NCBI GenBank assembly: GCA_950295325.1
Contig: OX485803.1
Location: 53,211,554 to 53,275,553, forward strand
Origin: Polytrichum commune
Taxonomy: Eukaryota > Streptophyta > Polytrichopsida > Polytrichales > Polytrichaceae
Length of the DNA: 64,000 nt
Direction: 5' to 3'
Shown: piece after piece, positions 32,033 through 62,475 of the stretch
Layout of the letters: the number at the start of each line of letters is the position of its first letter
How positions within the stretch are numbered: position 1 is the stretch's first letter
Made by a program: the position numbers and the translations under genes
Notes under the pieces: generated by a model
What the model was told of the DNA's origin: nothing
The model's input: only the letters and a program-made list of their open reading frames with translations
The model's database searches: none

Positions 32033-32437
32033 AACATTATATTCGTTAATCGGAGACTTTTGAAAGTCTCAAAATAAAATATGCCCATAGTTTGGGATGC
32101 CAATATTGTGGGCATATGGAATGTTGGGAACATCAAGAACATGACAATTTAAAAATTCGCACGTAAAGAATATTCCTAATACTAAAAATAGAAAATTGCA
32201 ATTATAATGAAAACGTGAACTCCATGTGGAAAATAACAAGCGAATATAAAAAACAAATGGTTTATGTCATTATAGAGTTTGGGGTGCGCATCCCATAAGT
32301 AAGGTTCTTATGGTTTTGGATGGCACATCCCAAACGTATACCACAATGGAGTGTGACAAGTCTACTAAGTCTATTAAAAACCAAGACTACTAAGTACTAA
32401 TGTTTTTTCCCGCCGTTAACTTTCACCTATGTTATGT

Positions 32438-35400
32438 TTACTCATCTCCATCTTCCGCTTCATATCCATTCTCGGCGTCATTTTCCGCAGCTGCAATACG
32501 TGCCAAGTTGTCTTTGGCAAAATGTATATGTTTTTGGGGGATGGTCATTGCTTCTGTGTTGGAACCTTTGCGCGGCTTCCAAGCACAAAGTATAGTATCC
32601 GTGTTTATCCAAACCGGTGTGTACGCTGAGTCCACTGTCCACTTAAAATTCTTTTTGGTGTCCCAACCTAAATAAGTGCGGAGCACGTTGTGGTCTTTAG
32701 TGCTTGGACGACAATATTCCACCTCAATTTGACGAAAGTTGGGGCTAGTTCGAACAAAATTGGGTGAAGACAATGCTTTTACCAACCAAATTGGCTTGGG
32801 ATGCTCCTCATCCCCAGCTCGTACGAGGACCAAATACCCTTCATGGCAATCAACACCTACACGAAACGACGGTGCCGGTCGATTGCGGGCAGGGCCAACG
32901 TAATGCTCGTCCATTGCGAACTCTTCACGAACGTCTCCATTGCTGAAAAACATAGTATCGGACTCCACAACCGTCAAACGACTTTGTGGCCAAAATCCTT
33001 GTGTCAAAGTCGTACGGGTGTCGCCACCAAGTGTCATCAAGGCTGAGCGAATGCGATCCCAATACGCGATCAACGGTTCATGGGTATCTCTAACACGTCT
33101 TGTGATGTCCTCCTCGCACAACTCTTTCCAATATTCAATGAATCCGGATATGCCTTTGATGATTTCCGGCCCATTCCTCATGGGTTCGGGTTTGCAAGGC
33201 TTTGGTTCCCCATCCGGGACCAAACATTTCCCATCATTGTCTTGACGCCATACGAGTATACCATCATCCGGGCCCCAATTAGGAGATGTGCACAAAAGCT
33301 TGAATTGCATGGCCGGGAGACCATCGTCCCTCATATAAAATCGGAATTGTTGTGCTTTGGTATGCCCCACCAAACGGTCCCCTCCCTTCAACATGTATGG
33401 CTTGATGAAGGCCTTGAAATTTGGTACTTCCTCAATCAAGTGCGGAATTACTGGCATATGGTCCAAATCCATATACGATTTCATAAGAAGAGGTATGGTT
33501 GGAAAATCTTCTTCATGCAACTTCATGCTCCACCGTCCGAATGATGCATCAATGTCGTCGTGTGTATGTCCCACCATCAAGAAAGACACAAACACCTCCT
33601 TGAAGATTCCTTTCGCCACGAGCAATGACCAAAAACAAAATACGTATCGACATTTGTTGTCCTTCGCACAATTATCAAGTTGAACGTGGAGAGTTGGAGG
33701 CAATGGTTTTGCACAAATGGGCTCTCCGGGTGGTTCTGGCAATGACGACATACAAACCTCCTTCCCCAAAAGCACTGCCTCATAAAGGGATGTGGTTCCA
33801 CAACCATCAAAAAGTGCACGGGAAGAATGTACCGGTGGCTTCTCAAGATCGCGCAACAGTTTTGCAAATGAACCCACCGTGTGGTTAGCATCGCCAGGGT
33901 AAAAATCCAAACCATAATGGGCATACTTTACGTCCCCATGGCCGTGGGCAATCATACCTGGAAAAAACAAACGATGCGTGACCAAAATAATCAAATAACC
34001 ACTAAACGGATGTATGGAGTTGGACATTTGCCAAACACACCCAAGAAAATTGGATAGACTTTAAACACGTAGTTGTGATTTCATACAAACCTGTGACAGC
34101 TACGGGCAACTTGAAGAGACCATCCGTGGCCTTTATTTTGCGTGCATAACAAGGGCATGCGGTTTTGGCGTGGTCCATTTTATCATGGATGACTGTTAGA
34201 ACCTCTGTGGGCCTCATTATGGATAGAGCACGATTCTTATAGTAATCTTGACGGTGTGCCTCTTGATTGTTGACATGTTCAATATATTTTTTCTGGTGTC
34301 TGGAATGAGATTCAGTGCCTATGGGGTGGGCGTCTCGAAGACCTTTGTATTTTTCACACGTCATACATCTAGCGAACTTGTCCCCGGGTCTTTTCAGAAT
34401 GTATTCCGCAAACTGCTGGTTTTTAATCACACTCAACTTGGACAAAGAAATGGGCCCACATCCCGCTATGCGACCCACTTCATTGATGTCCGTTAAGATG
34501 TTCTTCCATTTTGTGCCTGTGGGCAACACCATTTGAACAACCTTCTCCCCTGACGACAATGTCCTCGTCTTGTGGGGCATTGCATCGGCCAATGGCACTA
34601 TGATGGTGGATAGTGTCGCGGACGCTTGCAGTGTAGCCTCCCTAGGTTTCTTTGTGCCCGAGTTGCCATGAAATCGAGAGCGGCGACCCAACGATGAATA
34701 TTTTCGAAACCTATAAAAGTCAGCCTTGGAGACGGCGTGGATGGTATACCACGCTGTACAACACACATCAACATTCTCAAGTGTCACCACCTTATGCCCA
34801 TGGGTATCAAGGTGCAAATTTCTGTGGACCTCGAGTTTCTTAGCCGACCTCATACGAAAATCCGCAAGCCACATCTCTTGACGCAGAGATCTAATTTTCT
34901 CCCGCGGGAAAAATTGGCAACATTTCCTCGCGCAACAATCCTTGCCGGACACTAGACGGATAGATTCATCCCCCAAAAGCCGATCCCGTCGACGCTCCTT
35001 ATCTCCGCGAGGCACACGGTTTGAATCATATCTACGGAGGCCTTTGCGAGGACGTGTTGTGGCCAACAAAGCTAATTGTGTTTGCTTATGCCGCCGCTCA
35101 TGATCCCACAAACTCACTTCCTCATGTAGAACTCGACGAAGCGGCCATCGACGCAAGGAAAATCTCCATGTCACCGGGAACTCTACCGGAAGCAAAGAGT
35201 TCAAGATGCACACGCCAACATCATCGAGACCTAGGGCGTTGGCATCGACACAATCACGGGGATTGGAGTTTCTACATATACCATCTGCCACCGGGACACC
35301 AACCTCGTTGAGTAGAACGACATCAAGGCCAACCCATTGCTCCCTCCCGAAACCGGCACACAACGGAATGTCATCGTGGTCATCTCCGGAATGCAGAGAT

Positions 35401-35744
35401 TGTTCGTGGACTTCCAAAGATTCATGGGAGGATGTATCCACAAACACCCCCCTCACGTTTGGCACACCATTACTATCTGCCGACGGGGAAGACAGTTCAC
35501 ATTCAGCATCGGATGACGATGCATACGTCGACAACTCCAATGAACTATAACCCACATGCAACGCCATACAGCCTAGACCAACCACCAGAACATGATCAAC
35601 CCAACCACCACCGCAATGCATACAAGAGAGGATAGAATATATGTGGAGATAAATGGCCCAAAATTGACAAACAAATTTTGGTGCACCATTGGAGAACCTC
35701 ACGCACAAAGACGAACGCGCGTCCCAAAAAAACGTTTTAAGCAT
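32438..35744 (-). CDS. DUF7869-like putative transposase, two exons
   Basis: Exon 1 is 35744-34091 and exon 2 is 33957-32438. The intron 34090-33958 (133 bp) has GTTTGT at its donor and a TTTTTTCCAG acceptor, and splicing keeps the frame across a Gly codon. The product is about 1057 aa; the start is the farthest upstream ATG, and later ATGs are possible. The first 200 residues are hydrophobic then acidic and may not all be coding. Near residue 275 is a Cys/basic stretch (DCCARKCCQFFPREK). Residues about 640-690 hold the family core: QLDNCAKDNK, then a hydrophobic helix and VGHTHDDIDASFGRWS. The Asp, Asn-Lys and His/Asp-rich residues resemble an RNase-H-like catalytic core, but that is inference. 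The gene sits at the left of a unit with inverted ends, and a broken relative lies in the same place in element A, which favours a transposase role. There are no stops, so it may be active. Confidence 0.75.
33958..34090 (-). other. Intron of the DUF7869-like gene
   Basis: GT donor directly after GCTGTCACAG and a polypyrimidine-CAG acceptor before GTATGATTGCCC. Splicing links ...AVT-G-MIAHGHG in phase 1. Confidence 0.75.
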
Positions 35745-36250
35745 ACGTCTAGGTTGTTCACTAATGTAAACAATACATGGACAAAGAGGAGAACACTCGT
35801 TAGTCGTCCAGGAGGGCCCTGCTGTTCGGACCAGCGCCTGTCCACATACAACCGACGACGAAATCAGAAATCCGAGAACGCCACATGCATTTACGAACGC
35901 GCGTTCGTGACCTCAGTAACTTCTCCATGTACATCCGGCGGCCTTCGAGATCCCTCAAATGAGAGCACCCTGAGGAATATCGGTTTTGTAGGTCAAAGTA
36001 CCATGTTGACTTAGGAACCTGCGCGATATACTATCACAAGAGAACACTTGTCCATACGCACAAAATTAGCAAATCTGCAGATGATGCCTGAATCAACTCC
36101 AACAATATTTTGAACACTGAGCACCTCCATATTGTGAATTTGATTATGTTGACTTTTGCGTACCTACCCATTTACGAACGGACGTTCGTAAATGGGTGCG
36201 ACCCCGTGTTCACATCCTTCACGGACGAGCGATGAGCATATTTTTCTTGC
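35745..36250 (+). repeat. Duplicate of the exon-intron region at 59510-60120
   Basis: The sequence GAGGGCCCTGCTGTTCGGAC then CAGCGCC corresponds to GAGGGACCTGCTGCTCGGTC then CAGCGCC at 59533. Next come a palindrome at both sites, ACATCC(G/A)G(C/T)GGCCTT(C/G), GTTTTGTAGG, GACTATCAC-type sequence, and the CATT(T/C)(A/G)CGAACG palindrome followed by TGCGACCC. Order and spacing are similar. It appears to be a fragment of a second copy of the large gene's 3' half. Confidence 0.6.
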
Positions 36251-36966
36251 TATTCTGTGTTCGTAAATTACTGCCATACTGATGTGCATGAATGAAGATG
36301 TGTTGCTGGATGCGTAGACAATAATGACATGTATTTACGAACGAACGTTCGTAAATTCCCGACCATCAGGTAACAATAGATACGGGTCAAATAAGTATGT
36401 ATGATCCTCGAAGGCATATTTACGAACGCACGTTCGTAAATGACTGTCATGGATTAAGTGCATGTGACTAACCATATGAGTACCTCAATCCAGAACATGC
36501 TCTCATGTGGGATTTACGAACGCACGTTCGTAAATTACCGACCAACAGGTACCAATAGACAAGGGTCAAATATGTATGTATGAAACTCGAAGGCATATTT
36601 ACGAACGCACGTTCGTAAATAAATGCCATGGATGATGTGCATGTGACTATCCATGAGTAGCTCAATCCAAAACATGATCTCCTGTGGGATTTACGAACGC
36701 ACGTTCGTAAATTACCGACCATCAGGTACCAATAGATAAGGGTCAAATATGTCTGCATGGTCCTCGAAGGCATATTTACGAACGCACGTTCGTAAATAAC
36801 TGAGATGGATTACGTGCATGTGACTATCCATATGAGTAGCCCAATCCAGAACATGCTCTCATGTGGAATTTACGAACGCGCGTTCGTAAATCCTTGCCAT
36901 GTCCAGGTCCGAATCGTTTGTCTAAACCTGAAGCTCTTCATCTTTACGAACGTGCGTTCATAAAGT
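35886..36966. repeat. Cluster 1 of the 22-bp palindrome, with a 178-bp tandem array
   Basis: Ten copies of TTTACGAACG-NN-CGTTCGTAAA, with the central two bases varying, start near 35887, 36172, 36332, 36418, 36512, 36598, 36690, 36775, 36868 and 36943. From about 36320 to 36860 they sit in a tandem repeat of about 178 bp carrying two palindromes per unit; the interval between equivalent copies at 36512 and 36690 is 178. The spacers share phrases such as GGTACCAATAGA, GGGTCAAATATGT and GCATGTGACTA(T/A)CCAT. The palindrome is better conserved than its spacers. Confidence 0.85.
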
Positions 36967-37495
36967 TCCGGTATTTACGGCGGTATATGCGGTAGGTACA
37001 GCCTGTACTGTACCTGGGTGGTGTAGGGTTGGCGCACACGAAATGGCTTGAGCGCGTTCGGTGAGGTCTGTAGAGCGCACACTTGCATGTGCCGCTGAAA
37101 AGAGCTTTGTTGTGGGGGGAAGAGCTTTAAGTACTTCACCCCGCTGGTTCAAAATCCCTTGGATGCTCTTTAAAAAGCAGATTCCCGCCGCCTTCTTTGA
37201 CCTAACAATCTCCCATTCCATCCATGCGGAATTATATAAATAGCATTGTCATGTATGGAACATGCCTTGCATGCACGCCAACATATTGAAAATATATAAA
37301 TCGGTTGCACACCTTAGTTGTGACCAAGGTCTCATCGAAATATATGTATATACGTATATATATATATATATATACACATAATGTCTAAATATGGAGATGG
37401 TTAACATTGAATATTTAATGATTTGCGACTAAGGTATGAAGTCCAAGTTAATTGACAATTGATGCCTAATAAAGTTATGAATGTCGAAGTCATAG

Positions 37496-37534
<39 letters not shown>

Positions 37535-39135: not shown

Positions 39136-39175
39136 TCAAAGCATGAGAATAACATGAAGGGTTCCAATATACAAC

Positions 39176-40163: not shown

Positions 40164-40925
40164 GTGAGTTATATACATATACGTATATATACATATACGT
40201 ATATATACGTATTCGTATATACACGAATACATATATGTACGGACAGGGGATCCCAAAACCATCACATATACGAACGCTCGTTCGTAAATGGACATACACT
40301 GCATACCACCTCCATTTACGAACGCTCGTTCGTAAATGGACATACACTGCATACCGAACCTCCATTTACGAACGTGCGTTCGTAAATACGCACTCCACGT
40401 TCTTTGAAATGATCTATATTTACGAACGCACGTTCGTAAATATACTCAAAATATCACTCAGAAGGAACCTTAACTTAAATATGAACCTCTATGAATATCT
40501 AAAGAACAAATACAATTTTGCGAACACCAATAAGACAAATCACATGTACTTACGAAAGATAAATCAACCAAATATCCGAAAAGATAGACCAAATGGACAT
40601 ACTTATGAACGCACGTTCGTAAATGAATCCAAACCTATAAAACCTATATCTTTTACGAACGATCGTTCGTAAAAATAACCAAATATATTACAAACACATT
40701 CATGACGAGTAGTCTCTTTGATCTTCATATCTTTTACGAACGCTCGTTCGTAAACTCAATACTAAAAATTTATATGATCTTGCAACCCCTCATTTACGAG
40801 CGAACGTTCGTAAATATAATTACATCAATTGCAAAGACGCATTAACACTGCGTAGTCTGTGGGATATGCATGTCACTTACGAACGTTCGTTCGTAAAGTC
40901 ACTAATTGTTTATATTCTGTTGCAG
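40164..40925 (+). repeat. Inferred leader intron carrying palindrome cluster 2
   Basis: GTGAGT at 40164 and a CTGTTGCAG acceptor at 40917-40925 bound 762 bp. It holds nine copies of the 22-bp palindrome, near 40268, 40315, 40365, 40420, 40601, 40651, 40732, 40791 and 40876, plus a (TA/CG)-rich tract at 40170-40235. The acceptor lies directly before the ATG of the large gene. Confidence 0.5.
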
Positions 40926-43900
40926 ATGGCAAGATCAAGCAGAAGCGCCATTGAGATGTTCGCGGTGAAGGTCGATGGCCTCCCAGAGTTGGTGTTAGAC
41001 GATAACGGCAACGACAACTATGTCCCCAAGGAAGACTTCATGGGGGAGTGGACGGCACTGCCAGAGAAGATCGGGGACGGCCTCTTCTGCATGCGCTTCA
41101 CCTACGAGCTGGAGACAAGACCGGACCAGCCCGAACAGTGGGTTCAAATGAAGACGTGGGAGATAGAGTCCATAGAGGCCCAGGGGGAGTATGTAATTCT
41201 GGACATGAAGAACAAGAAGGATCATATCAACCTCTTGTTGCATTTTCAAAAAAATACCTTCTCCTACCAATACGCCACCAATAACGTAGCGGAAGATGCC
41301 AAGCACTTCGACCTGGACGGCCTCTTCTCCAAATATGCGTTGAGCCCATACTGGACTGCAAGGAAATTGACCGCCCTTGCATTGAACATCTCCAAATACA
41401 ACAGTGTGGTCACTGAGGCAAACAAGAAGAAGAAGAGCCCCAGGAAACCATCCACATCAGGGGCAGGAGGATCTAGAAGTGCACCCAGGCCTGTGCCTTC
41501 CGCTAGCAGGGCGACGGAGGGCCCCAGTAGACACTCCACGCCATCGAAGAGGACAAGGGAGGAGATGGAGAAATCGGGAGTAACGGAGACCGCAGAGGTG
41601 ACCTCGCCTGTCGTAATGCCCACCCCCTTGAAAAAGGGTGAGAACCCTGACGCTGTGAAGGCCATGAGGATCCTTCGAGACTTCAACAACTACTCGAAGG
41701 ATTGCTGGCCCATGGGACGCCACTTCACATTCAACGTGGACTGCTTCAAGTGCGAGATGTCCCCCAACAAATGGGTGGTTCGCTCTCGCGAAAGCGGTGG
41801 TGTGAAGTGGCAGATAAATAATCTAATGAACAACGTCAAGTGGGACAGGCAGACCGTCTGCGTCATGCCGAAGGGGCTGACATCCCGTCCGACGGAGAAG
41901 GACTGGCCACGGATCCAGAATGGAGAGTTCTGGATCATAGACGGCCAACACAGCTTGGAGGCGTCCCAAATAATTCTCAAGGACGACAACTTCCAGCATG
42001 AGCTGAAGGAGGACTTGCGCTACTGGAAGGCGTTCTTGGTGTGGTCGGACGATTGGGACAAGCTGCGGAAGATATCCACCTTCCTCAACTCCGGCAACAA
42101 AATCAAGGCCTTCGAGGCGTCGTGGGCAGCCAACATAGTGGCTGCAAGGGACGTCTGGGTCGCCCACGGGTGCCCCCCTAAAGAAAGGGAGAACGCGAAG
42201 ACGCCGTCTCCACAATGGAAGGTGAGTTTACGAACGAACGTTCGTAAATATCTTTGACATTCAAATTTTCAAGTTCTTTGACATTCAAACTTACGAACGT
42301 GCGTTCGTATTTTGTGCGTTACTGATGTTTTTCTTGCTGCAGGCATTCTGCGACGCGATGGTGGACAAGTTCTCCTCCATCGACATGAAGTCTACAACAA
42401 CCAAGTCTGTCTTGGAGCTCAAGGGTGAGCTCCGCCTCATCTGTTGCAACAGGGACACTTGGGAGTTGTGGACACAATTTTTTGATGCGCACAGCTCGGG
42501 CGATCTGGTCAACCCCGACACCGAGGAGAAGTACAGCGCGGAGAAGACCGGGGAGGCCCCTCCACTACTGAGGGAGTTCTTCAGGTCCCTTCAAGGGTTA
42601 ACAGAGTCCGAGTTGCAGAGGTGCGCGGTGCATCTTCTTGGGAACACTGTGGGAAGAACCATCCCATACCCGAAGATATTTTTGAAGAGGCCAAGACACA
42701 AGCCCGGCACGTATTCCATCAAGGAATGGTGCGAACACCGCAAGCTGAAGACTGCTGCAATGAGGGAGTTGAGCGCCCTAATACCAGAGTACGCACTCAT
42801 CCTAGCCGACGGGGACATTAATTGGGCCAGCTGGAAGATGTTCAAGGTCGACTACAACATCTCCGGACCCTCAATGCGTTGTCTTGTCAAGGAGCACGCC
42901 TCCATTTTGAAGCAGAAGGGGAACAAGAGGACAAAGAAAACCGAGACGGATCCCCAGGTGTCGCGCACCTCTCCATGAGGAGTGCCCGAAACACCATGGG
43001 CACAAGGGGGACCCCGGAGTGACACCCGGGACTTGTGGCGCCATTGGTGAGAGGGCCCAAGTGATCCTAGTGTGGGTGAGGGCCCCGAGCGTTGGGAACG
43101 CCTCCCATCCACTGAGACTAGGAAGCATGAGGGTAAGGCCATGAGCTATGCGTAGCTCATAGCATGGTGATTCTAGAATGCTCAAGATCACCTCAATCGG
43201 AGGTGTGAGCTAGGAGTTATGGCCATTTGAGTGGGGCGCTGTCCCGGGACAGCGCCCTGGTGCAGCAGTGCCTGGGAGTGACTCCCGGGACTGCCAAGGT
43301 TCAAAGAGGCATAACGTCCTCATAACTTGCCCAAACGGGGCAAGTGAGGAGTCCATCGGCATCTACGTGAAGCGTAGATGAAGATGGAGTGGTTGGTTGT
43401 TATGATCAGACATCATACAAGGAAGTTATGATGGTCTGAAGCTGCTGGGGGGGTTCTAGGCCCAGCAGCTAAAGGAAAATGTCCACTTGGCCCCAACTCT
43501 TGGTAGAGAGACAAGAGGTTGGTTGACGGTGGGGTAGGGGCCCCGCGTGAAGTCCTAGAGGCTTATATGGGTGAGGTGGTGTGGCCTCACCCACCCGAGG
43601 CCGAACGGCACGGCCTCCATGGGCATTGGCCCATTGTGAGGCCATAGTTGCCTAGTATGGTTCGGGTTGTTGTAGTGTTGCTCCGGCAACGCGATGATCA
43701 ACATAGGATTGGACTTCCATGGATGGAAGTCCACATTGGGGAAATGGGTTACCGATTAAGGGGTGAGTCCCGAAAGCAAAGTAGGAGGGTTGGTTCCCTC
43801 CTATGAACTATTGGTCCGGGGTAAGAGGAGCTATCCATTAGCATGGCGGAATGCGAATGGTTAGCGCTCGTAACCTTTGCTAGAAACGAAAATGGGCAAG

Positions 43901-49900: not shown

Positions 49901-52900
49901 TCACCCACCCGAGGCCGAACGGCACGGCCTCCATGGGCATTGGCCCATTGTGAGGCCATAGTTGCCTAGTATGGTTCGGGTTGTTGTAGTGTTGCTCCGG
50001 CAACGCGATGATCAACATAGGATTGGACTTCCATGGATGGAAGTCCACATTGGGGAAATGGGTTACCGATTAAGGGGTGAGTCCCGAAAGCAAAGTAGGA
50101 GGGTTGGTTCCCTCCTATGAACTATTGGTCCGGGGTAAGAGGAGCTATCCATTAGCATGGCGGAATGCGAATGGTTAGCGCTCGTAACCTTTGCTAGAAA
50201 CGAAAATGGGCAAGATGGTCAAGGAGGGCTAGCAAGGGTTGCGACACCAGGAGGTGGAGCAATACAGAAGCTTTTTGACGCGGAAGAGGTTGGCCACATT
50301 CGAAGGAGTGGCCAGATTTTGTCTGTTGACAAAAGGAGTGGAGAGGGTGACATTTTCCAAGTGGGACCGGACCATGAGCAGGGCCGAGGTCAGGGAGGAT
50401 CGACGGGGGTGCCCATTTGCCCTGATCGATTTCAGGGGGATCCCCGGTGCGTCGAGGCAGGGGGGGAAGGACATACCTTTCTACGACCCCTTCATGGCCA
50501 AGTTCAAGGAGCACAAGTCTCCGGACATGAGGGAGCCTCACGTTTGGCTGTGGATAGTCGAGCAGGAGAAGCTCTCTGCTGTAGTCGACCTGTACGAGAA
50601 GTCGATCAAATTTGAGTACAGCATCTTCCACAGCACTTACGTGCCCGCCAAGACGGAAGGGATCGTGGCCATCAACGAGGCCAGGGGGAACAAACAGGTG
50701 GGGGCGGTCAGCCTCGTCTTCTTGACGTACAACGCGCTGCGGAATGGGCGAGCCCCTGTCAAGGCGAACACTACGTTCAAGAAGATCTACAGCATCCCCC
50801 ATCCCCCTCCCAAGGATCTGCTACAGGAGACCTTGTACACTGTCTTCCCGGCGATGGAACTCAGGTTGGAGTTCTACGTCTCCGTTTTGCAGAGCGTGGC
50901 AATAAGCGGAGAGACCGTGTACAACGTTTGTGGCGGCAGCAAGTTCATGTACGCTGCGATGGTAAGCTCTCCAACTAATATTTACAAACGCTCGTTCGTA
51001 AAGTTCACCTCAACTTGTCTTGGGTTTGATGACATTGTTTCTCGTCGTTGATGTTTACGAACGCACGTTCGTATTTTCTAACGTATTTGCTTGAATCTCA
51101 GATGCTAGGGCTGGTCGTCAACAGCTTCATTGAAGCCATCGACGAGGAGGACTTCCACGTGCACAGGGCGAAGGCCTCCACGATGGACCTGGAGGACATG
51201 TCCCTCCCGAGGACGGACATCAACATGCCCGTCGACGAAGGCATGCCCGCCATGGAGACGGACGACGACAAGCCCGCGCCCTCCTACAACGTCGAGGCGA
51301 TCCTCCGATCCTTGGACGTCACTCCTCTCCGCATTTTGGCGCCGTCGGGAAATCCATCCGACGTGCAAGGGACTCCGGGTGGATACACGGGGTCGTCGGC
51401 GGGGACAACCCAAGATGTCCTCCCCGCGAGAACGTCTGGAGCGGAGGCATTCGGCACTCCCGGGGGATGCTCGACATCCGTGTCGCCCAGGCCGATCGTG
51501 GTTCCCAAGATGGAGAACCTCGACCTTATGGACCAACGGTCCCGACCGACGTTGGACCAGTACCGCAACACGAGGCGGAGGATGAAGAAGACCCCCTACG
51601 TGGAGCTGCCTCCGGGGGCAATCATCGAGGTCTCCGATGAGGACGAGGGCGACATGGAGATCATGGTCGAGCTGGGGGTAGACTTTGACAAAAACAAGAG
51701 GGTCAATGTCGCAACCCTTGCTAGCCCCCCTTGACAATCTTTCCAATTTTCAATTCTAGCAAAGGTTACGAGTGCTAACCATTCGCATTCCGCCATGCTA
51801 ATGATTAGCTCCTCCTACCCCGGACCTTATAGTTCATAGGAGGGAACCAACCCTCCTACTTTGCTTTCGGGACTCACCCCTTAATCGGTAACCCATTCCT
51901 AGATGTGGACTTCCATCCATAGAAGTCCAATCCCATGTTGATCATCGCATTGCCGGAGCAACACTACAACAACCCGAACCATACTAGGCAACTATGGCCT
52001 CACAATGGGCCAATGCCCATGGAGGCCTTGCCGTTCGGCCTCGGGTGGGTGAGGCCACACCACCTCACCCATATAAGCCTCTAGGACTCTACGCGGGGCC
52101 CCTACCCCACCGTCAACCAACCTCTTGTCTCTCTACCAAGAGTTGGGGCCAAGTGGACATTTTCCCTTAGCCGCTGGGCCTAAAACCCCCCACCAGCTTC
52201 AGACCATCATAACTTCCTTGTATGATGTCTGATTCCAATAACCAACCACTTCATCTTCATCTACGCTTCACGTAGATGCCGATGGACTCCTCACTTGCCC
52301 CATTCGGGCAAGTGGTGAGGAAGTTATGCCTGTTTGAACCTTGGCAGTCCCGGGAATCACTCCCAGGCACTGCTGCACCAGGGCGCTGTCCCGGGACAGC
52401 GCCCCACTCAAATGGCCATAACTCCTAGCTCACACCTCCGATTGAGGTGTTCTTGAGCATTCTAGAATCACCACGCCATGAGCTACGCAAAGCTCATGGC
52501 CTTACCCTTGTGCCTCCTAGTCTTCGTGGATGGGAGGCGTTCCCAACGCCCGGGGACCTCACCCACACTAGGATCACTTGGGCCCTCTCACCAACGGCGC
52601 CACAAGTCCCGGGTGTCACTCCGGGGTCCCCCTTGTGCCCATGGTGTTTCGGCCACTCCTCATGGAGAGGTGCGCGACACTCACCCCCACCAAACGGAGT
52701 CGATGCCCTCATCGACTATACTCGTAGTCGGCACACCAATTCTCAAGTTGCCATCCTCTATGGTGCGGCATTGTGTTTACCTTAGGGCGCGACCCCCACA
52801 ATGCATCTTCAAATTTGGCATAGTCCCAAAGGTGTCGTTCCTAGGTGGTCCGTTAGCGACCTTGGATCTCTCTTCCAAGGACCTAACCTATACTAGACCC

Positions 52901-55900
52901 ACCTACTTTGGGACTCACTTGGGTTGCCCCTCCTTTGGGGCCTCCCCCGTTAGGCTCCACTAGCCTAACGTGACACATCTAGGCGAGACCTCAACGCTTC
53001 CACTAAGTTGTCTCGGTTGCAACTCCGAGATGGCTTTCCATTGTTAAGCCACACCTCGATCGCACGGGGGTGATGCCAAGTCCCGCCCGACTCGGTTCCC
53101 AGTTTGCTCTTTCGAGACATGGGTTCATGACTCCCATGCGCCAACATTCGTTAGCTCGCGGGTAGCACTTTTATGAGCACGCGCCATCACCTTGTCCCCG
53201 CCCGGACAAGCCCACGGCTAAGAAGTTTTTTGGTTTTATCCAAGGCCCCTCCTAGCCATGGCCCCAATTACTCGGCTTACCCAACCTAGTTTGGCATATC
53301 TATTCCCCCTCTTCCACTAACCAAGCACAAGTACAAGACTAGGACCTCATCTCGTACTTTTCTCTTTGCACCACTAAAGTTTGGACTTTATTCCCTCAAG
53401 CCAAAGAACAAGTTCATGTTGTGGAGCAATTAGCCTCAAAGCTAAGTGTGCTACTAGCGTCTCTCCCCCACTAAAGGAGATTGATGTCCTCATCAATGCC
53501 TACGCTTCATTTTATTGGAATGTCTAGCCTTAGTTTCTTCAAAGTGCTTTACCAATTCCTTGCCGTTCATCATGTCTCTTGCCGCCACCCAAGCGGTTTC
53601 TTTCTCATGGTATCCTCACCATTTCACCAAGTACTCCTTTGTACATTTTCTTTCATTTTCACTTGGGCTTCCTACACTTGAGGATGCCCTCCTACCTCAT
53701 GTTCCAAATGACCTCCACAAGGTCGGGAGGTGGCCTAATCACTTGCTTGTGATCGGGCCACAAGGTGTCGTCCTAAAATGACTTTCGTAATGAGACATGA
53801 AATGTCGGATGCACTTTGATCTCGGGCGGTAATTCCAACTTATACATGTCCTTGAACACTTGTTCCACAATGGAAAACGAAGCTCCAATTTTGGACATGA
53901 ACTTTTGAAGTAAGGCCTTTGGGCAAGGTGAAGTTGTCCACATTCAACAACACCTTATTGGCCCACCTCATACTCCACTTCGCGTCTTCCGGCATTGATT
54001 TGCACTCCGTAGCACCTTCGGGCTTTCTCCACCAACAACTTGGTCATCTCCAAGACTTGTTTACCATCCTTGGCCAAGTCCTCACCATCTTGGTTGAACT
54101 CTAGTGTTGAATGTGCCCCCTCAAGAGCTAGGTTAATAGGTTGGAGCGCATCCACTCCATAAGCCACCACGAAAGACCACCCCTTGGTAGCCAAGTGCGT
54201 GGCTACATTGCAATTACACTCCGCTTGACCCACATAGTCCGCCCAATCTCTTTGGTCCGCCCCCACCAAGTTCCTCAAGTATTGCTTCAAGACTCCATTC
54301 ACATGCTCCGCTTTCCCATTCATTTGGGAATGCAAGGCCGTGCTAAACCTTAGTTTCATTCCGACCTCCTTAGAGAAATGCATTGAAAATGCACTTGTGA
54401 ACTTTGGATCTTGATCCCACACAATCACTCTTGGCAACCCGTGGTGCCTCAACCATCCTTTGAGAAAAGGCTATGCGGTCTCCAACGCGGTGGCGGTTCC
54501 CACAATCGGCACCATGTGTGCCAACTTGGCAAACCGCTATACCATATACAAGATGGCATCATACCCATGTGACTCCGGCAAACTTGTGATCAAGTCCATG
54601 CACATACTATGCCATGGCGCCGACGGAATAGGCACGGTTGCAAGAAACCGCCTTGCTTTTAGTAAGAGGCTCGGTTCACTTGGCACTTTATTCACGCCTT
54701 CACAAAGTGGGCTATATCCTCCGTTATGCACCGCCAATGGTATCTCTTTGACACCATTCTATGGTGGTTTTATTTTTCTCCTCTATGGCCGGCAATAGGA
54801 CTATCACATTCCTCCTTCAAAACCGATAGCCTCAACTTGCCTTGTGGCACATACACCCAACTTTGCTTGCACTTGAACAATCCGTCCACCAACTTAACCT
54901 CTTTAAGCTCACCTAAAAGCTTTTGTGCTTTGGGGTAGTTAATTTACCCCTCCCGTATCTTGCATCACAAGTTTCCTTCGCCGGCACACATTAGCCACAA
55001 TGTTTGGATGGTTCTCATTGCTTGGAACTCTTCCCGTCTACTTAGCGCATCCGGCACCACATTTCCACGGTCCGGTTTGTGGACCAAATCCACCTTCATA
55101 AGCGCCAAGCTATCATGCCAACGCAATGATTTGGCGCTCACTTCCGCTTGTATGTCAAAATACTTTTAGGACACATTGTCCTTGTAGACCTTTACTTTGT
55201 GCGACCCCAACTAGTGTCGCCACATCTTCAAGCAATACACTACGCAAAGAAGTTCTTTGTCATTAGTTGGTTGTCTTCTTTGACAACCATCGAGCTACAT
55301 GCTCGCATATGCAATGGCCATCCATCTTACACATAATCCACCATTGGCAAAATCATTCACCCCCGTATGCACCTCAAAAGGTTTGTCAAGCTCCGCGAAC
55401 TTGAGCACGGGCGTCTAAGAGAACTTGCTCTCAAGCTCCCCAAAGACTTGGTGGCAAGGCTCCTCCCACTCTTGGGATAGCCAATTCTTCCACAAGTCGG
55501 ATAAGGTCGGATAACCATCAAGCTTAACGCTCTCATATGCAATGGCCATCCATCTTACGTTAACCATCCGCCAATGGCAAAGTCACTCGCCCCTATATGC
55601 ACCTCAAAAGGTTTGTTAAAGTCCGCGAACTTAAGCACAGGCGGCGAAGAGAACTTGGTCTTAAGCTCCTTAAAGACTTGGTGGCAAGGCTCATCCCACT
55701 TTTGGGATAGCCATTTCTTGCATAAGTTGGACAAGGTCGGACAACCATCGAGCTTCATGCTCTTATATGCAATGGCCATCCATTTTGCCTCAACATCCGC
55801 CAATGCTAAAGTCACTCGCCCCCGTATGCACCTCAAAAGGTTTGTCAAAGTCCGCGAACTTAAGCACGGGCGGCGAAGAGAACTTGCTTTTGAGCCCCCC

Positions 55901-58900
55901 AAAGGCTTGGTGACAATGCCCATCCCACTCTTGGGATAGCCATTTTCCTCAATAAGTTGAATAAAGTCCTAGCAACCTTAGAAAACTCTCGAATGAAGTT
56001 GTGGTACTAATTGGCTAGGCCAACAAATGACCTAAGCCCTTTTGAATCAAGGGCCAATTCTCCTTTTGGATTGCCTTGACATTCTTCATGTTCGTCCACC
56101 AACTTCATTTATCACCACATACCTCAAGAGCTCAATCTCTCGTTGAGCAAAGTTATTTTTCACTTCTTGGCGGTAATTTTTTTTTTTGGGCAACACATTG
56201 GTGAATACATCCTTGTATTTCACCAACATCACACCAATGTTGTTTGGGGGAGGCCCATCTTTCCTAGCCTCCCCATACGTTCCTTGGAGTTGCTCCAATT
56301 GAACCACGACCATTATGTTTTCTTTTCTTTTTTTATTCAGTCCATTAAGACCAAATTCAACTTAGGTCCTCCTACCATAGGAGTCATTGTTAATTTGAAC
56401 TTCAATTCTTTGCCATTATGACACATCATAATGCACCGCAAGCACACCGGCTTGCACCTCACATCTATCATGTGAGTTTCAAAGAAGGCGGCCTTCACAA
56501 TGACATGCATTTCATCTATTTCACTTGGTGTGAAATTTTGACAAAAATCCAATGTCCCACATTGAAAGGTTACATGCATCGCGGCCTCCTTTGTCTCATG
56601 CGGATCGCCCTTTCCAAACCGTACCTTGGTGGGCTTGCCCACTCTATCAATTGGCAAGCCCCAACTCCCTTGTGAGCTTTGGGCTCATGAAAGAGTCCAT
56701 TGCCTCTTTGTCAACTCATGAGACATATCTCCCATTCATTTGAGCCTCAAGGTACAAAAGACTTGGCCTCGGCTTAAGGGTACTAGCCTTGGCCACAATG
56801 CCATCGTCTTACATTTGGTCCTCCGCAACTTGGCTTGGCTTGGTCCGCAAAGCCAACTTCAAACATTTCGTGCGCGGGACAAATTGGTTTGGTGCCACAA
56901 AACCAATTTCTAATAGTTTGTCCGCAAAACAAACATGTTTTGACTTGGTAGCACAAAGCCACCTTCCCACACTCCGTCCGCGGCACGAACATGAATTGCC
57001 TTGGTAGGACAAACCCACCTCCCAACATTCCGTCCGCGGCACAAGTATGATTTGCTTTGGAAGCATAAAGCCACCTTTCAACATTCCGTCCGCGGCACCA
57101 ACATGTTTTGCCTAAGTAAAATGGACCAAACAATTTGCACTCATTTCTTTGGGACCTACTTTGGCTAAAGTCACTTGTGGTGATGCGCCGCCAAACTTCT
57201 CTTTGGGACCATCGGCTTCAATGCTCTTGCGAACTTGATGGTCCCCACCATGTCCTAAAAAAACCTTGGGGACTTAAACAAAGCATCCACCACCCGCTTT
57301 TAAAACCCCACCTAAAACGATGCATTTCTTAGAAAGCTCGTCCGTTTTAGGTGTATCCTTCATTTGTGCGTTTGAATAGCGCACATAGGCCTTAAGAGGC
57401 CATGGGTGCCTCATTAGCACCAAGTTCATTTCAACATCCGAACCTTCGAAGCATCTCGAATTGAATTTCAATCCAACATTAATACCCTCCAAGGTTTTGG
57501 GTGCATTCGGTATTCTAGGCCCCAAATGTTTTTTTTGAGGTTTGCGGGAGCCCTTTTCAAAGCACTCCTCCATTTTCCTTACCAAATCCACCCTCATGCC
57601 CACCATTGTCATTAGAACCAATGGTATGGTCAAATTCCACTTGCACATGATCCTTGTTCCAATTTGAGCCTCACAACCTTTTGGAAACCCCGGGCTCACC
57701 ATCATAACCCGCATTTTTGATAGCCATGTTTCCCTCAAAGTGCGAGCTCAAAACTTGGAACCCTGCTCTGATACCAAGTGTCGCACCCCTTGCTAGCCCC
57801 CCTTGACAATCTTTCCAATTTTCAATTCTAGCAAAGGTTACGAGTGCTAACCATTCGCATTCCGCCATGCTAATGATTAGCTCCTCCTACCCCGGACCTT
57901 ATAGTTCATAGGAGGGAACCAACCCTCCTACTTTGCTTTCGGGACTCACCCCTTAATCGGTAACCCATTCCTAGATGTGGACTTCCATCCATAGAAGTCC
58001 AATCCCATGTTGATCATCGCATTGCCGGAGCAACACTACAACAACCCGAACCATACTAGGCAACTATGGCCTCACAATGGGCCAATGCCCATGGAGGCCT
58101 TGCCGTTCGGCCTCGGGTGGGTGAGGCCACACCACCTCACCCATATAAGCCTCTAGGACTCTACGCGGGGCCCCTACCCCACCGTCAACCAACCTCTTGT
58201 CTCTCTACCAAGAGTTGGGGCCAAGTGGACATTTTCCCTTAGCCGCTGGGCCTAAAACCCCCCACCAGCTTCAGACCATCATAACTTCCTTGTATGATGT
58301 CTGATTCCAATAACCAACCACTTCATCTTCATCTACGCTTCACGTAGATGCCGATGGACTCCTCACTTGCCCCATTCGGGCAAGTGGTGAGGAAGTTATG
58401 CCTGTTTGAACCTTGGCAGTCCCGGGAATCACTCCCAGGCACTGCTGCACCAGGGCGCTGTCCCGGGACAGCGCCCCACTCAAATGGCCATAACTCCTAG
58501 CTCACACCTCCGATTGAGGTGTTCTTGAGCATTCTAGAATCACCACGCCATGAGCTACGCAAAGCTCATGGCCTTACCCTTGTGCCTCCTAGTCTTCGTG
58601 GATGGGAGGCGTTCCCAACGCCCGGGGACCTCACCCACACTAGGATCACTTGGGCCCTCTCACCAACGGCGCCACAAGTCCCGGGTGTCACTCCGGGGTC
58701 CCCCTTGTGCCCATGGTGTTTCGGCCACTCCTCATGGAGAGGTGCGCGACAGTCAAAGAGGAGGCGTTGTCCGTCGCCGAGCTTAACGCCAAGCTCGAGC
58801 AAAAGATGAAGGAGGACATGGCGAAGGCGGCAGAGGAGAATGCCAAGAAAATGTTCGCAATTCAGGAGGAGCTGAGGCAGTCGAACGAGAAGACGGACGC

Positions 58901-60971
58901 CATCCTCGCCATGCTCCAGCGTATGCAGAGCTTCTCGGCGCCCCCCCAGCCGGCCTACCCCTTCACTGGAGGATACCCCTCCCAATCCCCTCCACTGGGC
59001 ATGTTCACCGGAGGGCCTTCCCGCCAGCAGGCGCCCCACCCCACGCCTGTTGGCACTCCTCCGCCACCAGAGGTTCCCTCGACCACCTCCCACGATGCTG
59101 TGGCGGCGGCCATCCAGGAGGACGAGGATTTACGAACGCGCGCTCGTGAATCTTCAGGTCCTCCAGTCCTCACCCCTCCCCCTTCAAGGGTAGGACTGCC
59201 CTCATACACCGATGCATTGTCTTTCACCGTCGTCCCCAGGGTAGTAGACAGACATGGCGATGACTCTGCGCGACACACTGACATGGTCATTGTGGAGGAC
59301 ACGCAGGGGAGCCCCAATGACGCACCAGGGGTGCATGGGATGGACGTGGAAGAAACCCATGCGGCGTGGATGGAGGATGTCAGGATGGACGCGCTCGACC
59401 TGGGCGCCGAGGAAGAAGACGCGCTGCGCATCCAGGCGACACAGGCCTCTCAACCGGAGCGTGAGGCAGAGGCCATGGAGACAGAGGCGGCTGCAGCTGT
59501 GGAGGTTACGAACGCGCGTTCGTTAATCGTTGAGGAGGGACCTGCTGCTCGGTCCAGCGCCGCTACCCCTCCCCCCGATGACGAGGTAACTCTCCTCTGA
59601 GAATACCATTTTTTAACGAACGCGCGTTCGTAACCTCTCTAACATCGCGATGTTTTTCTCTTCATCGACATCCAGTGGCCTTGCGAGAGCCCTCTTCAGC
59701 GGTCCCCCTTAGGGCCGAACAGTTTTGTAGGACACGGCATCATTTTGCCTTAGGAAAATGTGATAGACTATCACGTGAGAAATGTAAATATTCAACGGAT
59801 TAATATATGAGCCTATGTTATCTGCATCGCGTTGCTTCAAATTCTCTGCCCTCGACCCCTTCTCGTATGTTGTATATGTTGATGAGATTATGTTCATTCT
59901 TGCATACCCACCTCATTCGCGAACGCTCGTTCGTGAAAGGCTGCGACCCACTGTCCACCTCATTCGCGAACGACCGCTCGTAAATGTACGTGTAGCCGCG
60001 CTCACGAACGAGCGCTCGTAAATGATGCGCACCGCCCCCGCAGCCTTCATTCACGAACGCTCGTTCGCAAGTGTGCCCTTGAGCACATTTTCCTTGCACT
60101 CTCCTCACTTCCTCGTCTTTCCCCATAATGCACCGTCTTCATTTTCTACGCAAAATTTCATTATTGGATCATAGAATTAAACTAGTCGAGTTGTTCATCA
60201 CAGGACCCCCCGGAGATTGGTCGCAACCCCTCTACCAGTGGACCTCCCACCCGGAACAAACCTTTCATCGTTTTTGACCTCAACGGGGTGTTGTGTCACA
60301 CCCAACACATCCCAAGGGTCCCCACGCGTCCCTTCCGTCACCCCGACGAAAGGGACTACGACGGCGAGCTCGACACCCTCATTAACCGCAAGGCTGTCCG
60401 CGCCCGTCCCGGCCTGCGGGACTTCCTTCGCGAGGTGGTCGAGTTCGCCCACGTCGTTGTGTGGAGCTCCATGGTCATGGACAACACGGAGCCCATCGTC
60501 CACTTCTTATTCCGTGATCTCCCGAGCCCTTGCCTCGTCCTCGGCCAAGAAGACTGCGACGAGCTGCTCGACGAGAAAGGCCGACCGGTGCCCAAGTTTG
60601 GCGGTCGAGGCGGAGGACAACAGTTCCTCAAGGTCCTCCGTTCAAGACTCTGGCAAGGCGTCCCCCGTCTGCATGGGACGCCCCACGGGTGGTGGCCGAC
60701 TCCTGAGAACACCCTCCTCATCGACGACAGCCCCACCAAGAGCGTGTTGAACCCCCCGGGCAACGTCATCTTCCCGGACACATGGACCGGCGATAGGCAA
60801 GACACATTTTTGGTCGATAGGCTAGCCCCCTACCTTAGAAGGCTCGTGCTCCACGCCGGTAGCATCCCATTTTTTGTTAGGTCCAACCCCTTCGGCAATG
60901 CGGCGCTAAGCCCCCGCGATAATGTATTCAAGAGCATCATGAGGCTCGCCAAACTCAATAAATTGATTTGA
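40926..60971 (+). CDS. Large ParB-like / HAD-phosphatase gene, interrupted by two retrotransposons
   Basis: Exons: 40926-42221; 42343-42958 plus 50252-50961; 51102-51706 plus 58757-59585; 60204-60971. All introns are GT-AG and phase 0. Leaving out each LTR element with one copy of its 5-bp target duplication keeps the frame: exons of 432, 442, 478 and 256 codons, about 1607 aa. Residues 294-390 resemble ParB/DGQHR domains, with IIDGQHSLEA at 337-346 (usual Arg replaced by Ser), then KISTFLNSG. Exon 2 is helical and unrecognised; its end reads GETVYNVCGGSKFMYAAM, faintly like an AdoMet-methyltransferase motif I. Residues about 1076-1135 form a coiled coil, followed by a Pro/acidic linker. Residues 1353-1607 are an FCP1/NIF-type HAD domain. 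As it stands the gene is doubly disrupted, and each host exon piece meets a stop inside the LTR. Its role is unknown; DNA-site binding with a phosphatase activity is a guess. Confidence 0.65.
42222..42342 (+). other. Intron 1 of the large gene, with a palindrome at each end
   Basis: GTGAGT donor and TTGCTGCAG acceptor, 121 bp. One 22-bp palindrome begins 5 bases after the donor and another lies about 35 bases before the acceptor. Splicing joins ...SPQWK to AFCDAM in phase 0. Confidence 0.75.
42959..43932 (+). repeat. 5' LTR of retrotransposon 1
   Basis: Begins TGTCGCGCACC and ends GGTTGCGACA, with short inverted ends TGTCGC/GCGACA. 974 bp. Confidence 0.9.
43935..43946 (+). promoter_or_regulatory. 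Primer-binding site of retrotransposon 1
   Basis: TGGTATCAGAGC, complementary to the 3' end of plant initiator methionine tRNA, two bases after the 5' LTR. Confidence 0.85.
44590..44890 (+). repeat. ~60-bp tandem repeat in retrotransposon 1
   Basis: Four to five units share GTGCCGCGGACGGAATGTTG, then GGTGG(C/G)TTTGT and CTACCAAGGCAAA. The same array occurs inverted in retrotransposon 2 (about 56830-57120). Confidence 0.7.
45640..46790 (+). pseudogene. Reverse transcriptase/RNase H remnant with 4-fold ~229-bp repeat
   Basis: A FVGLAN-stop-YHHFIREFS stretch at about 45670 corresponds to the RT/RNase-H junction of Ty3/gypsy pol. The following segment (TKPLG...PFEVHTGAS) is repeated four times, with equivalent points at about 45864, 46091, 46322 and 46551, a period near 229 bp. 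After the array come MKNFFAVVHCLKMWRHYL-like and GSHKAKVYMDN motifs of RNase H. Many frames are broken. Confidence 0.75.
47043..48460 (+). pseudogene. Integrase and chromodomain remnant, retrotransposon 1
   Basis: Pieces of a Ty3/gypsy integrase: a zinc-binding-like N-terminal part (47043-47261, with CDSPIAGHRGE), the core start (MDLITSLLESHGYDAI, 47340-47480), then RVIVWDQDPKFTS and STALHSQVDGKAE (47530-47650). A stop at 47481-47483 splits the core. Near 48322-48460 a chromodomain-like segment reads YLVKW, stop, GYHEKETAWV and NELVKHFEE. The product would be inactive. Confidence 0.8.
49273..50246 (+). repeat. 3' LTR of retrotransposon 1
   Basis: 974 bp with the same start and end as the 5' LTR; no difference was noticed on reading through both. 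It is preceded by the polypurine tract at 49261-49272. Confidence 0.9.
50962..51101 (+). other. Intron 2 of the large gene, with a palindrome near each end
   Basis: GTAAGC donor, TGAATCTCAG acceptor, 140 bp. Palindromes at about 50980 and 51054 lie 18 bases after the donor and about 27 before the acceptor. Splicing joins KFMYAAM to MLGLVV in phase 0. Confidence 0.75.
51707..52679 (-). repeat. 3' LTR of retrotransposon 2
   Basis: On the plus strand it begins TGTCGCAACCCTTGC and ends GTGCGCGACA. 973 bp. It follows the element's 3' end in minus-strand orientation, next to a CTCACCCCCACC polypyrimidine (polypurine on the minus strand) at 52680. Confidence 0.88.
53490..54740 (-). pseudogene. Integrase and chromodomain remnant, retrotransposon 2
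   Basis: Minus-strand counterpart of 47340-48460. RVIVWDQDPKFTS and STALHSQMNGKAE motifs lie in 54452-53955, and the core start lies at 54737-54537. The same stop codon occurs before the PFLKAWLRHHG-type stretch as in retrotransposon 1, so the defect was inherited by both. Confidence 0.8.
55360..56060 (-). pseudogene. Reverse transcriptase/RNase H remnant with 3-fold ~229-bp repeat
   Basis: Equivalent points of the repeat occur near 55370, 55598 and 55831. The FVGLAN-stop-Y phrase at about 56020 carries the same stop as retrotransposon 1. Confidence 0.75.
56337..57738 (-). pseudogene. Gag/protease-side remnant of retrotransposon 2
   Basis: The minus-strand frame 56657-56337 (HVTFQCGTLDFCQNFT, then EIDEMHVIV and MIDVRCKPVCLRC) corresponds to 45052-45300 of retrotransposon 1 and lies where a protease would be, but no clear active site is seen. 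The frame 57738-57274 is the leader side and is not recognised as a Gag zinc knuckle. Confidence 0.5.
57765..57776 (-). promoter_or_regulatory. Primer-binding site of retrotransposon 2
   Basis: TGGTATCAGAGC on the minus strand, two bases inside the LTR at 57779. Confidence 0.85.
57779..58751 (-). repeat. 5' LTR of retrotransposon 2
   Basis: 973 bp, essentially identical to 51707-52679. Plus-strand open frames running through it (for example from 58650) continue into the host exon by chance. Confidence 0.88.
59586..60203 (+). other. Intron 3 of the large gene, with five palindromes
   Basis: GTAACT donor and TTCATCACAG acceptor, 618 bp, phase 0, linking PPPDDE to DPPEIG. Palindromes lie near 59611, 59916, 59962, 60000 and 60050; the last four form a cluster with more variable ends (TTCGCGAACG, CTCACGAACG). 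The intron is related to 35880-36250. Confidence 0.65.
60204..60971 (+). CDS. HAD (FCP1/NIF-like) phosphatase domain exon
   Basis: Last or penultimate exon of the large gene, 255 residues. Motif I is VFDLNGVLCHT at residues 21-31 of the exon; the nucleophile Asp is kept, and the second Asp of the usual DxDG is Asn, as in several plant members. Motif II is VVVWSSM. Motif III/IV is LLIDDSPTKS followed by NPPGNVIFP, the characteristic FCP1/NIF-family phrase. The C-terminus FVRSNPFGNAAL also fits that family. Proteins of this group dephosphorylate Ser/Thr, for example in the RNA polymerase II tail. The substrate here is unknown, and the Asn substitution leaves activity uncertain. The exon starts at a phase-0 acceptor and has no ATG of its own upstream of motif I, which supports its being part of a longer protein. 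Confidence 0.75.
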   Translation, partial: DPPEIGRNPSTSGPPTRNKPFIVFDLNGVLCHTQHIPRVPTRPFRHPDERDYDGELDTLINRKAVRARPGLRDFLREVVEFAHVVVWSSMVMDNTEPIVHFLFRDLPSPCLVLGQEDCDELLDEKGRPVPKFGGRGGGQQFLKVLRSRLWQGVPRLHGTPHGWWPTPENTLLIDDSPTKSVLNPPGNVIFPDTWTGDRQDTFLVDRLAPYLRRLVLHAGSIPFFVRSNPFGNAALSPRDNVFKSIMRLAKLNKLI

Positions 60972-61082
60972 AATGCCTCCATGTCTTTGCTTGTATCATG
61001 TGGTTCACATTTACTAATGCTTGCTTCGTTTTTGGATGTCTTTTGTTGTTGTGATTGTTGTTGTTGTTGTTCTTGCCCATAG
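60972..61082 (+). other. Spacer or intron between the HAD exon and the terminal module
   Basis: It contains (TTG)n/(TGT)n and ends in TTGCCCATAG, a plausible acceptor. Whether the HAD exon ends at its TGA or is spliced onward cannot be told from sequence alone. Confidence 0.4.
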
Positions 61083-62083
61083 TCTGCCCCCATATGCGAC
61101 GCCCCTGTGGTCGACGGCCCTTCCCGTCCCCTCTCGCCCCCTGCCTCCCCTTCCCGCGACGTCACGGGCTTCCAAATGCCATCCCTCTACCAGTTCTCGG
61201 CGGTCGACGCGGCCTCGGCCGTGGATTACTCCCGCGACGTCGGCATCGACGACGGCGTCGTCAACAGCCCGCCCCCACCACTTGTCGCCCGCGCCTACGC
61301 CCCGTCGCCCTCCCCCCTCTCCAAGGAGAAACGGACGCTCGTTCGTTTGGGACACCTCTCGCCCTCGAGGGACGACGCCGTCGCTCGTCGCGGGCCGAGC
61401 CGGCGTCTCCGCATGGAAGGCCCCCGTTGCCACACCTCCCCCGCCGACTCCGTTCCTCCCCCCGCAACGTCCTCCGCGATCGTGGGCCCTCCACGCCTCG
61501 ACTCCCCCCCGCCATCCAACATAATTGCAATAGTTCCATCGGCTCCGGATGCTCCCGTCGACGCCCCCCTCGTTCCCACCGTTCCCCGCATGGACGTCCC
61601 CAAAGCCAAGGTGCCCTCCTCAACCCTGAACCCCTTTCTCGCTTTTGCTTTCCTTGTCTTCCGTTTGCGTGCCATTCTCTTTACGAGCGCCCATCCCAAA
61701 CCGCCCTCATTATTTTCCCCACTCCATTCCTATTCTTATCTTCCTATGACGTTGTTTCGCAGGTGGTTACCCGCTCGCTTGGTGCCCGGCCCTCCTCCAC
61801 GTCCTCCTTGGATAGGCACGCCCTCAAGGCCACATCTTCCGAGTCCGATCGTTGTCTGGCCCTCCGGAGAAGCGCAAGATGTTCCCTTTCGCAAACACCC
61901 TCGCATTCTACTTATAATACCACCTCTTACAATTCGGGAGCGCGTCCTGAAACATGCAAGAACGACACATATTCCTGTCCAGGCAACACACAAGGATACA
62001 GTCGTGGGCCTGAGATTTTTAGAGCCATGGAGGCCGCCAAAAAAAAGGGCTTAGCCGCAAAAAAAAATAATGGGTCGGACTAG
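61083..62083 (+). CDS. Proline-rich terminal module, two exons
   Basis: Exon a (61083-61610, 176 codons) and exon b (61763-62083, ending in TAG) are joined in phase 0 across an intron 61611-61762 with GTGCCC donor and TTTCGCAG acceptor. The first part is Pro/Ser/Arg-rich and low in complexity. The last part reads SYNSGARPETC...GYSRGPEIFRAMEA with a Lys-rich tail, and this is the piece conserved in element A at 22442-22666. It may be a separate gene or the end of the large gene. A palindrome remnant (GACGCTCGTTCGT) lies at 61334. No known domain. Confidence 0.5.
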
Positions 62084-62475
62084 TGTGACGTCTAGAAGCG
62101 TACTAGTGGGACGGACTCCCTAAATGGGCTTAGGTGTAGAACATATTTAAGTGCTTACTTTCTATGCTATTCCAAGTTACTCAAGACATTGATGGTATTT
62201 CCATTATAATTGTATTTCAATCCCAATTAATTCATTCAACTTCCATTCATTCTTCGCACCTTCCCTTCCATTCATAACGAGTTGTGATTTCATACGCAAC
62301 TATTTTCATGTATGCCTCACATTTTTGTTCACTTCCATGCCTTTATGTATAATAATAGTAGCATACCATTATACATATGGAATTTTTAGTCGTCATTACT
62401 GGTCCAATTTTGAAAGGTGCATCCTTATATAGTCTCATAATCAACAAAAAGTCTCCAAATACCGAATATAGTGTT

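Follow-up and report, generated by a model that had tools for sequence, protein, structure and literature searches.

A DUF7869 transposon of the moss Polytrichum commune with a candidate ParB-fold anti-silencing protein and family-specific palindromes

Introduction

The VANC anti-silencing proteins of the Arabidopsis VANDAL transposons are encoded by the elements themselves and, according to the portions of the published account available to us, motif and protein change together (PMC5735166). ParB-type clamps have been described in bacteria, archaea and phages, and sulfiredoxin is given as the commonest eukaryotic member of the ParB fold in the consulted portions of a 2025 survey, which used PF02195, TIGR00180 and KOFAM models (PMC12704722). 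Here we analyze a 64,000-nucleotide stretch of Polytrichum commune DNA (contig OX485803.1, positions 53,211,554 to 53,275,553; hereafter, the window) and, in particular, element B (32033-62475), which carries a DUF7869 gene, a gene for a predicted ParB-fold protein and numerous palindromes. The combination of a DUF7869 transposase, a ParB-fold protein and matched palindromes is absent from the earlier descriptions that we searched. As a joint explanation of these features, we favor, with moderate confidence, a DUF7869 transposon that employs its ParB-fold protein for family-specific anti-silencing.

Results

Element B is bounded by terminal inverted repeats at 32033-32061 (plus strand, AACATTATATTCG...) and 62447-62475 (minus strand), in agreement with the preliminary description of this locus. 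Both repeats fit a 29-bp pattern as well as the ends of same-family copies, the six left ends read beginning with AACACTATATTCG. With up to three mismatches, this pattern has four matches in the window and none in 100 shuffles; the remaining two flank a second element, A (12692-22982). Element B contains two nested long terminal repeat (LTR) retrotransposons in opposite orientations, each with a 5-bp target-site duplication (TSD) and each splitting the coding sequence of B: one on the plus strand at 42959-50246 (TSD CCAGG; LTRs identical at 974 of 974 positions), and the other on the minus strand at 51707-58751 (TSD GTCAA; 972 of 973). Removal of these inserts and their TSD copies reduces B from 30,443 to 16,100 bp, matching the earlier estimate of about 16 kb plus nested insertions. 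The inverted repeats at 43-59 kb were considered as a part of B and rejected, being the two opposed retrotransposons with their own TSDs and a primer-site-like stretch, TGGTATCAGAGC.

Genome-wide searches covered the 408-Mb assembly of 64 contigs, of which C1 to C7, at 42-78 Mb each, account for 406 Mb. Allowing up to one mismatch, the end AACACTATATTCGTTAAATTGAGAC was found 395 times in the forward and 407 times in the reverse orientation (802 in total), compared to 0 and 0 for the reversed-pattern control. Pairing was assessed with exact matches on C1, which was listed to its end: 70 of the 91 ends form 35 facing pairs less than 50 kb apart, leaving 21 unpaired, compared to a null mean of 1.28 and a maximum of 6 in 1000, and 19 of the 35 pairs span 16.0-18.6 kb. 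Flanking DNA breaks exactly at the element end in all 10 copies of one family and, in the L010-type subfamily, at the same base and into differing flanks in all 20 copies examined (22 were fetched, with L009 and L011 excluded as diverged or partial); the L010-type end, ATGGGGATATTAACTAAAATGAGAC, is similar to the end of B. Both the pairing of the ends and the discontinuity of the flanks bear out the transposon interpretation put forward earlier. The left end of the L010-type element was not reached within 17.9 kb upstream of L010, and none of the nine left ends guessed for C7-type copies carried an end, one falling inside the element.

Target-site duplications were read for the ten pairs whose flanking DNA was available (20 of 30 loci). 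Nine show an exact 4-bp TSD (AAGT, ATAA, GTAA, TATA, ATGT, ATCT, AATT, ATTC and TTTT), and one shows none; the 22,187-bp C7 element has AGTA at both sides, as read by eye. For eight B-family copies, ends were predicted from exon positions and the geometry of B minus its inserts, and 13 of the 16 predicted ends are present. Five of these copies are two-ended (16,063-16,136 bp), four with a 4-bp TSD (AGTG, ATGA, ATGT and ATAA) and one without, so that an exact 4-bp TSD is present in 14 of the 16 two-ended relatives overall. Thus, the paired inverted repeats of a cut-and-paste transposon are present, and TSDs are found in the relatives but are absent in B (flanks ATAA and AATT) and in A (TATT and TGTT). 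An 8-bp TSD seen by eye for B, AATTTGTA, was rejected because related copies start at AACAC with a 4-bp TSD. Judging from these sequence features, B is a DNA transposon from a large DUF7869 group. The same ends also delimit a 3.6-kb pair with a 4-bp TSD (G000:C1:11508363-11511968) and a 4.8-kb pair (C1:42393157-42397936), which are probably non-autonomous derivatives.

All gene models of B were predicted from open frames and splice phases. The minus-strand DUF7869 gene that had been noted next to the left end occupies 32438-35744 and consists of two predicted exons. Exon 2 (32438-33957), with the second and third conserved Asp, matches PF25273 with 138 bits (E 3.8e-40; curated cut-off 26), and exon 1 (34091-35744), with an HDKMDH motif and an unsettled start codon, is an open frame with a phase-matched splice that is covered by homologues. 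The Pfam scan returned no family other than DUF7869 above the cut-off for this protein, and PDB sequence searches gave no credible match. The structure model has the fold of a DDE transposase/integrase with conserved Asp residues, which supports the earlier proposal that the DUF7869 protein is the transposase, presumably of the DDE type. The nearest named relatives are from Ceratodon purpureus and Physcomitrium patens, and this genome yields 1490 first-look DUF7869 candidates. A third, distant group here (L001-L008; 25-29% identity to the window protein) has none of the four palindrome types in the 3.4-3.6 kb fetched.

The ParB-like gene lies on the plus strand. Exon 1 (40926-42221) encodes a weak PH-like domain followed by the predicted ParB-CTPase fold (residues ~267-394, IDGQHSLEAS). 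Exon 2 (42343-42958), with colinear homologues in L048 and L037, extends to retrotransposon 1; the coding sequence after it (50252-50961) is a piece of exon 3, with a 36% match in L048. Open frame models place exon 4 at 51102-51706, up to retrotransposon 2, and exon 5 at 58757-59585. The NIF/FCP1-like HAD phosphatase exon (60204-60971; PF03031, 58.2 bits, E 1.1e-15; 44% match in the C7 element) ends in a stop. The last open frame or frames (61083-62083), of unsettled exon structure, encode a lysine-rich C-terminal module (65% over 17 residues in the C7 element) and, because the NIF/HAD exon stops at 60971, may be a further exon or a separate gene. The preliminary description had a single multi-domain plus-strand gene reaching to within 0.4 kb of the right end; the extent holds, from 40926 to 392 bp inside that end, with the correction of a stop at 60971.

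The ParB-CTPase N-domain fold of ParB, Noc and KorB is thus predicted in exon 1, although this exon has no Pfam or NCBIfam match to ParB families, and PADLOC also gave nothing. No helix-turn-helix was identified in the model, which covers exon 1 alone, with low confidence at residues 390-408, and no ParA family is among the Pfam matches of the scanned B frames. This genome contains at least 96 near-identical copies of the gene and 1091 first-look candidates; a scan of viral contigs gave 75 pattern stretches, none confirmed. The C7 element preserves the gene order of B (transposase, ParB-like exon 1, exons 2 and 3, NIF, short last module), in line with the earlier view that the ParB-like/HAD gene is a constant part of the element rather than captured cargo. 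The last module, claimed in the same context to be retained in element A, can be discerned there only faintly; at E<=0.01, tblastn detected it solely in B. A clade-2-type ParB-like remnant in several frames lies just beyond the right end of an L010-type element (L032; 7907-8587 of the joined stretch) and probably represents a further, older element.

The window contains 32 matches to the palindrome ACGAACGNNCGTTCGT when up to two mismatches are tolerated, two of them overlapping, compared to 0.06 expected; all are within B, as are all 56 of the window's half-sites ACGAACG/CGTTCGT. Ten form an array upstream of the transposase gene (35893-36961), and ten, corresponding to nine sites, an array before the ParB-like gene (40270-40894). 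Nine are located in three predicted introns: two in intron 1 (42222-42342; at 42230 and 42293), two at 50962-51101 (50984 and 51057) and five at 59586-60203. Three are coding, two in exon 5 and one in the last frame (61331). A source in repeats of the surrounding DNA was rejected, with 0 matches at up to three mismatches in the 23.3 kb of the window outside the elements.

Other families carry other palindromes. The C7 element has 25 exact copies of TTTGGGTCGNNCGACCCAAA in the 14.7 of 22.2 kb read, distributed over intron 1, the region following exon 3, the surroundings of the NIF part and the stretches upstream of the ParB-like and transposase genes; the L010 type has 13 exact copies of CCACGGGTGNNCACCCGTGG in 21.4 kb read, one of them between the transposase exons. 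In element A, the palindrome is of the C7 type, with 1-3 mismatches per copy, in a 77-bp array. Among these palindromes (P1, P3 and P4), no family carries that of another in the parts read; the P2 pattern, TTTACGGACGNNCGTCCGTAAA, has 14 matches in B, none exact, owing to its two-mismatch likeness to P1. The central dinucleotide takes ten values in B, eight in C7 and three in L010 (TT 9, AA 7, AT 1), and spacing is regular in several arrays (85/94, 77-78, 47 and 36 bp).

In the protein database, the sequences of ParB-like relatives continue into intron 1, with tails that fit a palindrome. In close relatives, the tails FTNxRS, RTxVR or YERxFV correspond to three frames of the B palindrome; 43%-identical relatives mostly end in FTDxRP, as from TTTACGGACGNNCGTCCGTAAA; at about 35% identity, WVDRPK or FGSIDP are frames of the C7 palindrome; and other relatives have variants still compatible with a palindrome. 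A 9+2+9 palindrome with an end stop allowed can be encoded by 30 of 37 tails, compared to 239 of 1480 windows from exons and 295 of 1480 tails after shuffling, and, without the stop, by 21 of 37 compared to 111 of 740 and 134 of 740. The stop was allowed after the first count, the palindrome itself bringing TAA in one frame, and these relatives are not independent and were read from peptides only. Three protein-palindrome pairings are read on DNA, whereas the peptides of database relatives suggest a fourth (TTTACGGACGNNCGTCCGTAAA) and perhaps a number of variants.

The rest of the window contains further repeats. Element A, which shares its ends with B, is a degenerate relative that carries a broken DUF7869 gene, whose pieces are 65-80% identical to the B gene, as well as a 5-copy palindrome array (18783-19110). 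Two single LTRs of the retrotransposon family found in B lie inside this broken gene (13635-14572 and 15127-16099; about 78% and 92-93% identical), and an AT-rich tandem repeat of 26-bp units occupies 21128-21435. Element A is flanked by a segmental duplication (2300-7726 and 23553-30659; stretches 85-97% identical), each copy of which includes an F-box/Kelch gene (6413-7726 and 29001-30659). Another matching end is located 1.1 kb left of the window (C1:53210447), and further ParB-like exons occur at positions C1:53184989 and C1:53323098; the region may be a cluster of DUF7869/ParB-like elements.

Discussion

The ends, the 4-bp TSDs of the relatives, the copy number, the constant gene order and the family specificity of the palindromes are read directly from the DNA. 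The mechanism that we propose to connect them would be as follows. The DUF7869 DDE transposase would cut at the AACACTATATTCG ends and insert the element with a 4-bp duplication. The ParB-fold protein of the divergent gene would bind, as a dimer, the palindromes of its own family only, through two half-sites with a free 2-bp center, and would probably act as a nucleotide-dependent clamp spreading out from the arrays. The introns and spacers so covered would remain transcribed, a sequence-specific anti-silencing that resembles VANC in action although the proteins are unrelated. The NIF/HAD phosphatase, a relative of FCP1/SCP, may act there on RNA polymerase II.

Internal or subterminal repeats serve as transposase binding sites in other transposons, and the palindromes could likewise be accessory sites bound by the DUF7869 transposase, with the ParB-like protein doing something else, an alternative that we consider unlikely. 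The transposase also changes along with the palindrome (58-65% identity between B and C7; 44% and 33%, over two stretches, to the L010 type), arrays lie upstream of its gene in all three types, and one site falls in the gap between the L010 transposase exons. Because both genes are linked in the element, co-variation alone cannot separate the ParB-like protein from the transposase as the palindrome reader, which weighs against our preferred explanation. However, the palindromes closest to the two ends of B lie 1.1 and 3.9 kb away from them, and a second reader besides the transposase is likely because the ends, which the transposase necessarily reads, hardly differ between the B and C7 families, whereas the palindromes differ wholly. 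ParB-fold proteins are known to read such split palindromes, so that, from sequence, the element-encoded ParB-fold protein appears to be the natural candidate for this reader.

A ParB-like reader might instead pair, condense or segregate element DNA, as a ParB-parS-like module would, either for the synapsis of ends that are 16 kb apart or for a circular intermediate. The fold and the dense arrays are compatible with such a function; nevertheless, we regard it as improbable, given the lack of ParA among the Pfam matches of the scanned B frames and the existence of the 3.6- and 4.8-kb pairs, known here by their ends only. Moreover, the sites of B concentrate in introns and in spacers by gene starts, which points to transcription. 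A functionless spread of the palindromes within the element, as neutral tandem repeats or small hairpin-like insertions, appears very unlikely. The regular spacing suggests that several arrays probably arose by duplication, and the L010-type centers are nearly uniform, but variation in B and C7 affects the two central bases and leaves the arms unchanged, isolated sites in separate introns retain the same arms, and the relatives' tails (WVDRPK, SGDRPK, WAGRPK and SVDRPK) fit two-sided changes that keep the palindrome. Anti-silencing by the ParB-fold protein is favored because the placement in introns and upstream regions, the tandem growth and the family specificity match the VANC/VANDAL motifs, an argument from analogy. 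The broader notion of a eukaryotic ParB-parS-like system, in which protein and sites diverge as lock-and-key pairs and each family controls its own copies, is tentative, with chances only slightly short of even.

If this explanation is correct, a nucleotide-switched DNA clamp serves land-plant transposons against host silencing. Protein-palindrome pairs that have diverged to different degrees open target recognition, and the way it evolves, to direct testing. In the papers searched, DUF7869 is unmentioned (Repbase and preprints were outside the search), no moss transposon with a ParB-like protein was found, and nothing was found on a chromosome-level Polytrichum genome together with transposable elements; literature linking ParB, CTPase, eukaryotes and transposons has, in titles and abstract openings, nothing on such elements. 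The superfamily may already be named in Repbase or preprints. The main text of the ParB-fold survey, as available to us, contains none of 'transpos', 'plant' or 'moss' (PMC12704722), and this family was probably missed there because exon 1 matches no Pfam model.

Among known transposases, mariner (Mos1, SETMAR) and the retroviral integrases share the predicted catalytic fold, but element B differs in its length, in the 4-bp TSD of its family and in the lack of a credible PDB sequence match; Tc1/mariner elements duplicate TA, whereas the 4-bp TSDs here vary in sequence. Ginger, Sola, CACTA and Chapaev-type elements have inverted ends, some with 4-bp TSDs, and are distinguished by end sequence and transposase family. 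CACTA (EnSpm) ends begin with CACTA, with a 3-bp TSD and Transposase_21; here, the ends begin with AACACTATA or ATGGGGATATT, the TSD is 4 bp, and there is no Transposase_21 match in Pfam. Ginger ends begin with TGT, with a Gypsy-type integrase, whereas here the ends begin with AACAC, and no integrase match was found in Pfam. The PF25273 proteins, a domain of unknown function, are here assigned to a mobile element whose ends are defined and gain a likely role, that of a DDE transposase, together with exact ends and TSDs. With ParB-parS, Noc-NBS and KorB-OB, the system shares the predicted ParB-CTPase fold, the many split palindromes near the gene and the correspondence of different proteins to different palindromes; it differs in its location in a plant nuclear transposon, the N-terminal PH-like domain, the altered nucleotide motif and the lack of ParA in the frames scanned. 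VANC, a protein of the DUF1985 type, belongs to a Mutator-like element, and neither DUF1985 nor a Mutator-like transposase has a Pfam match in the scanned B frames. Nevertheless, to the extent that the consulted portions of its description go, VANC/VANDAL is alike in the element-encoded protein, the joint change of motif and protein, the placement in introns and upstream, the tandem growth and the family specificity. With its ParB-like fold, DUF7869 transposase, palindromic sites and 4-bp TSD, the system of element B would be a second, independent case, beside VANC, of how transposons may escape silencing.

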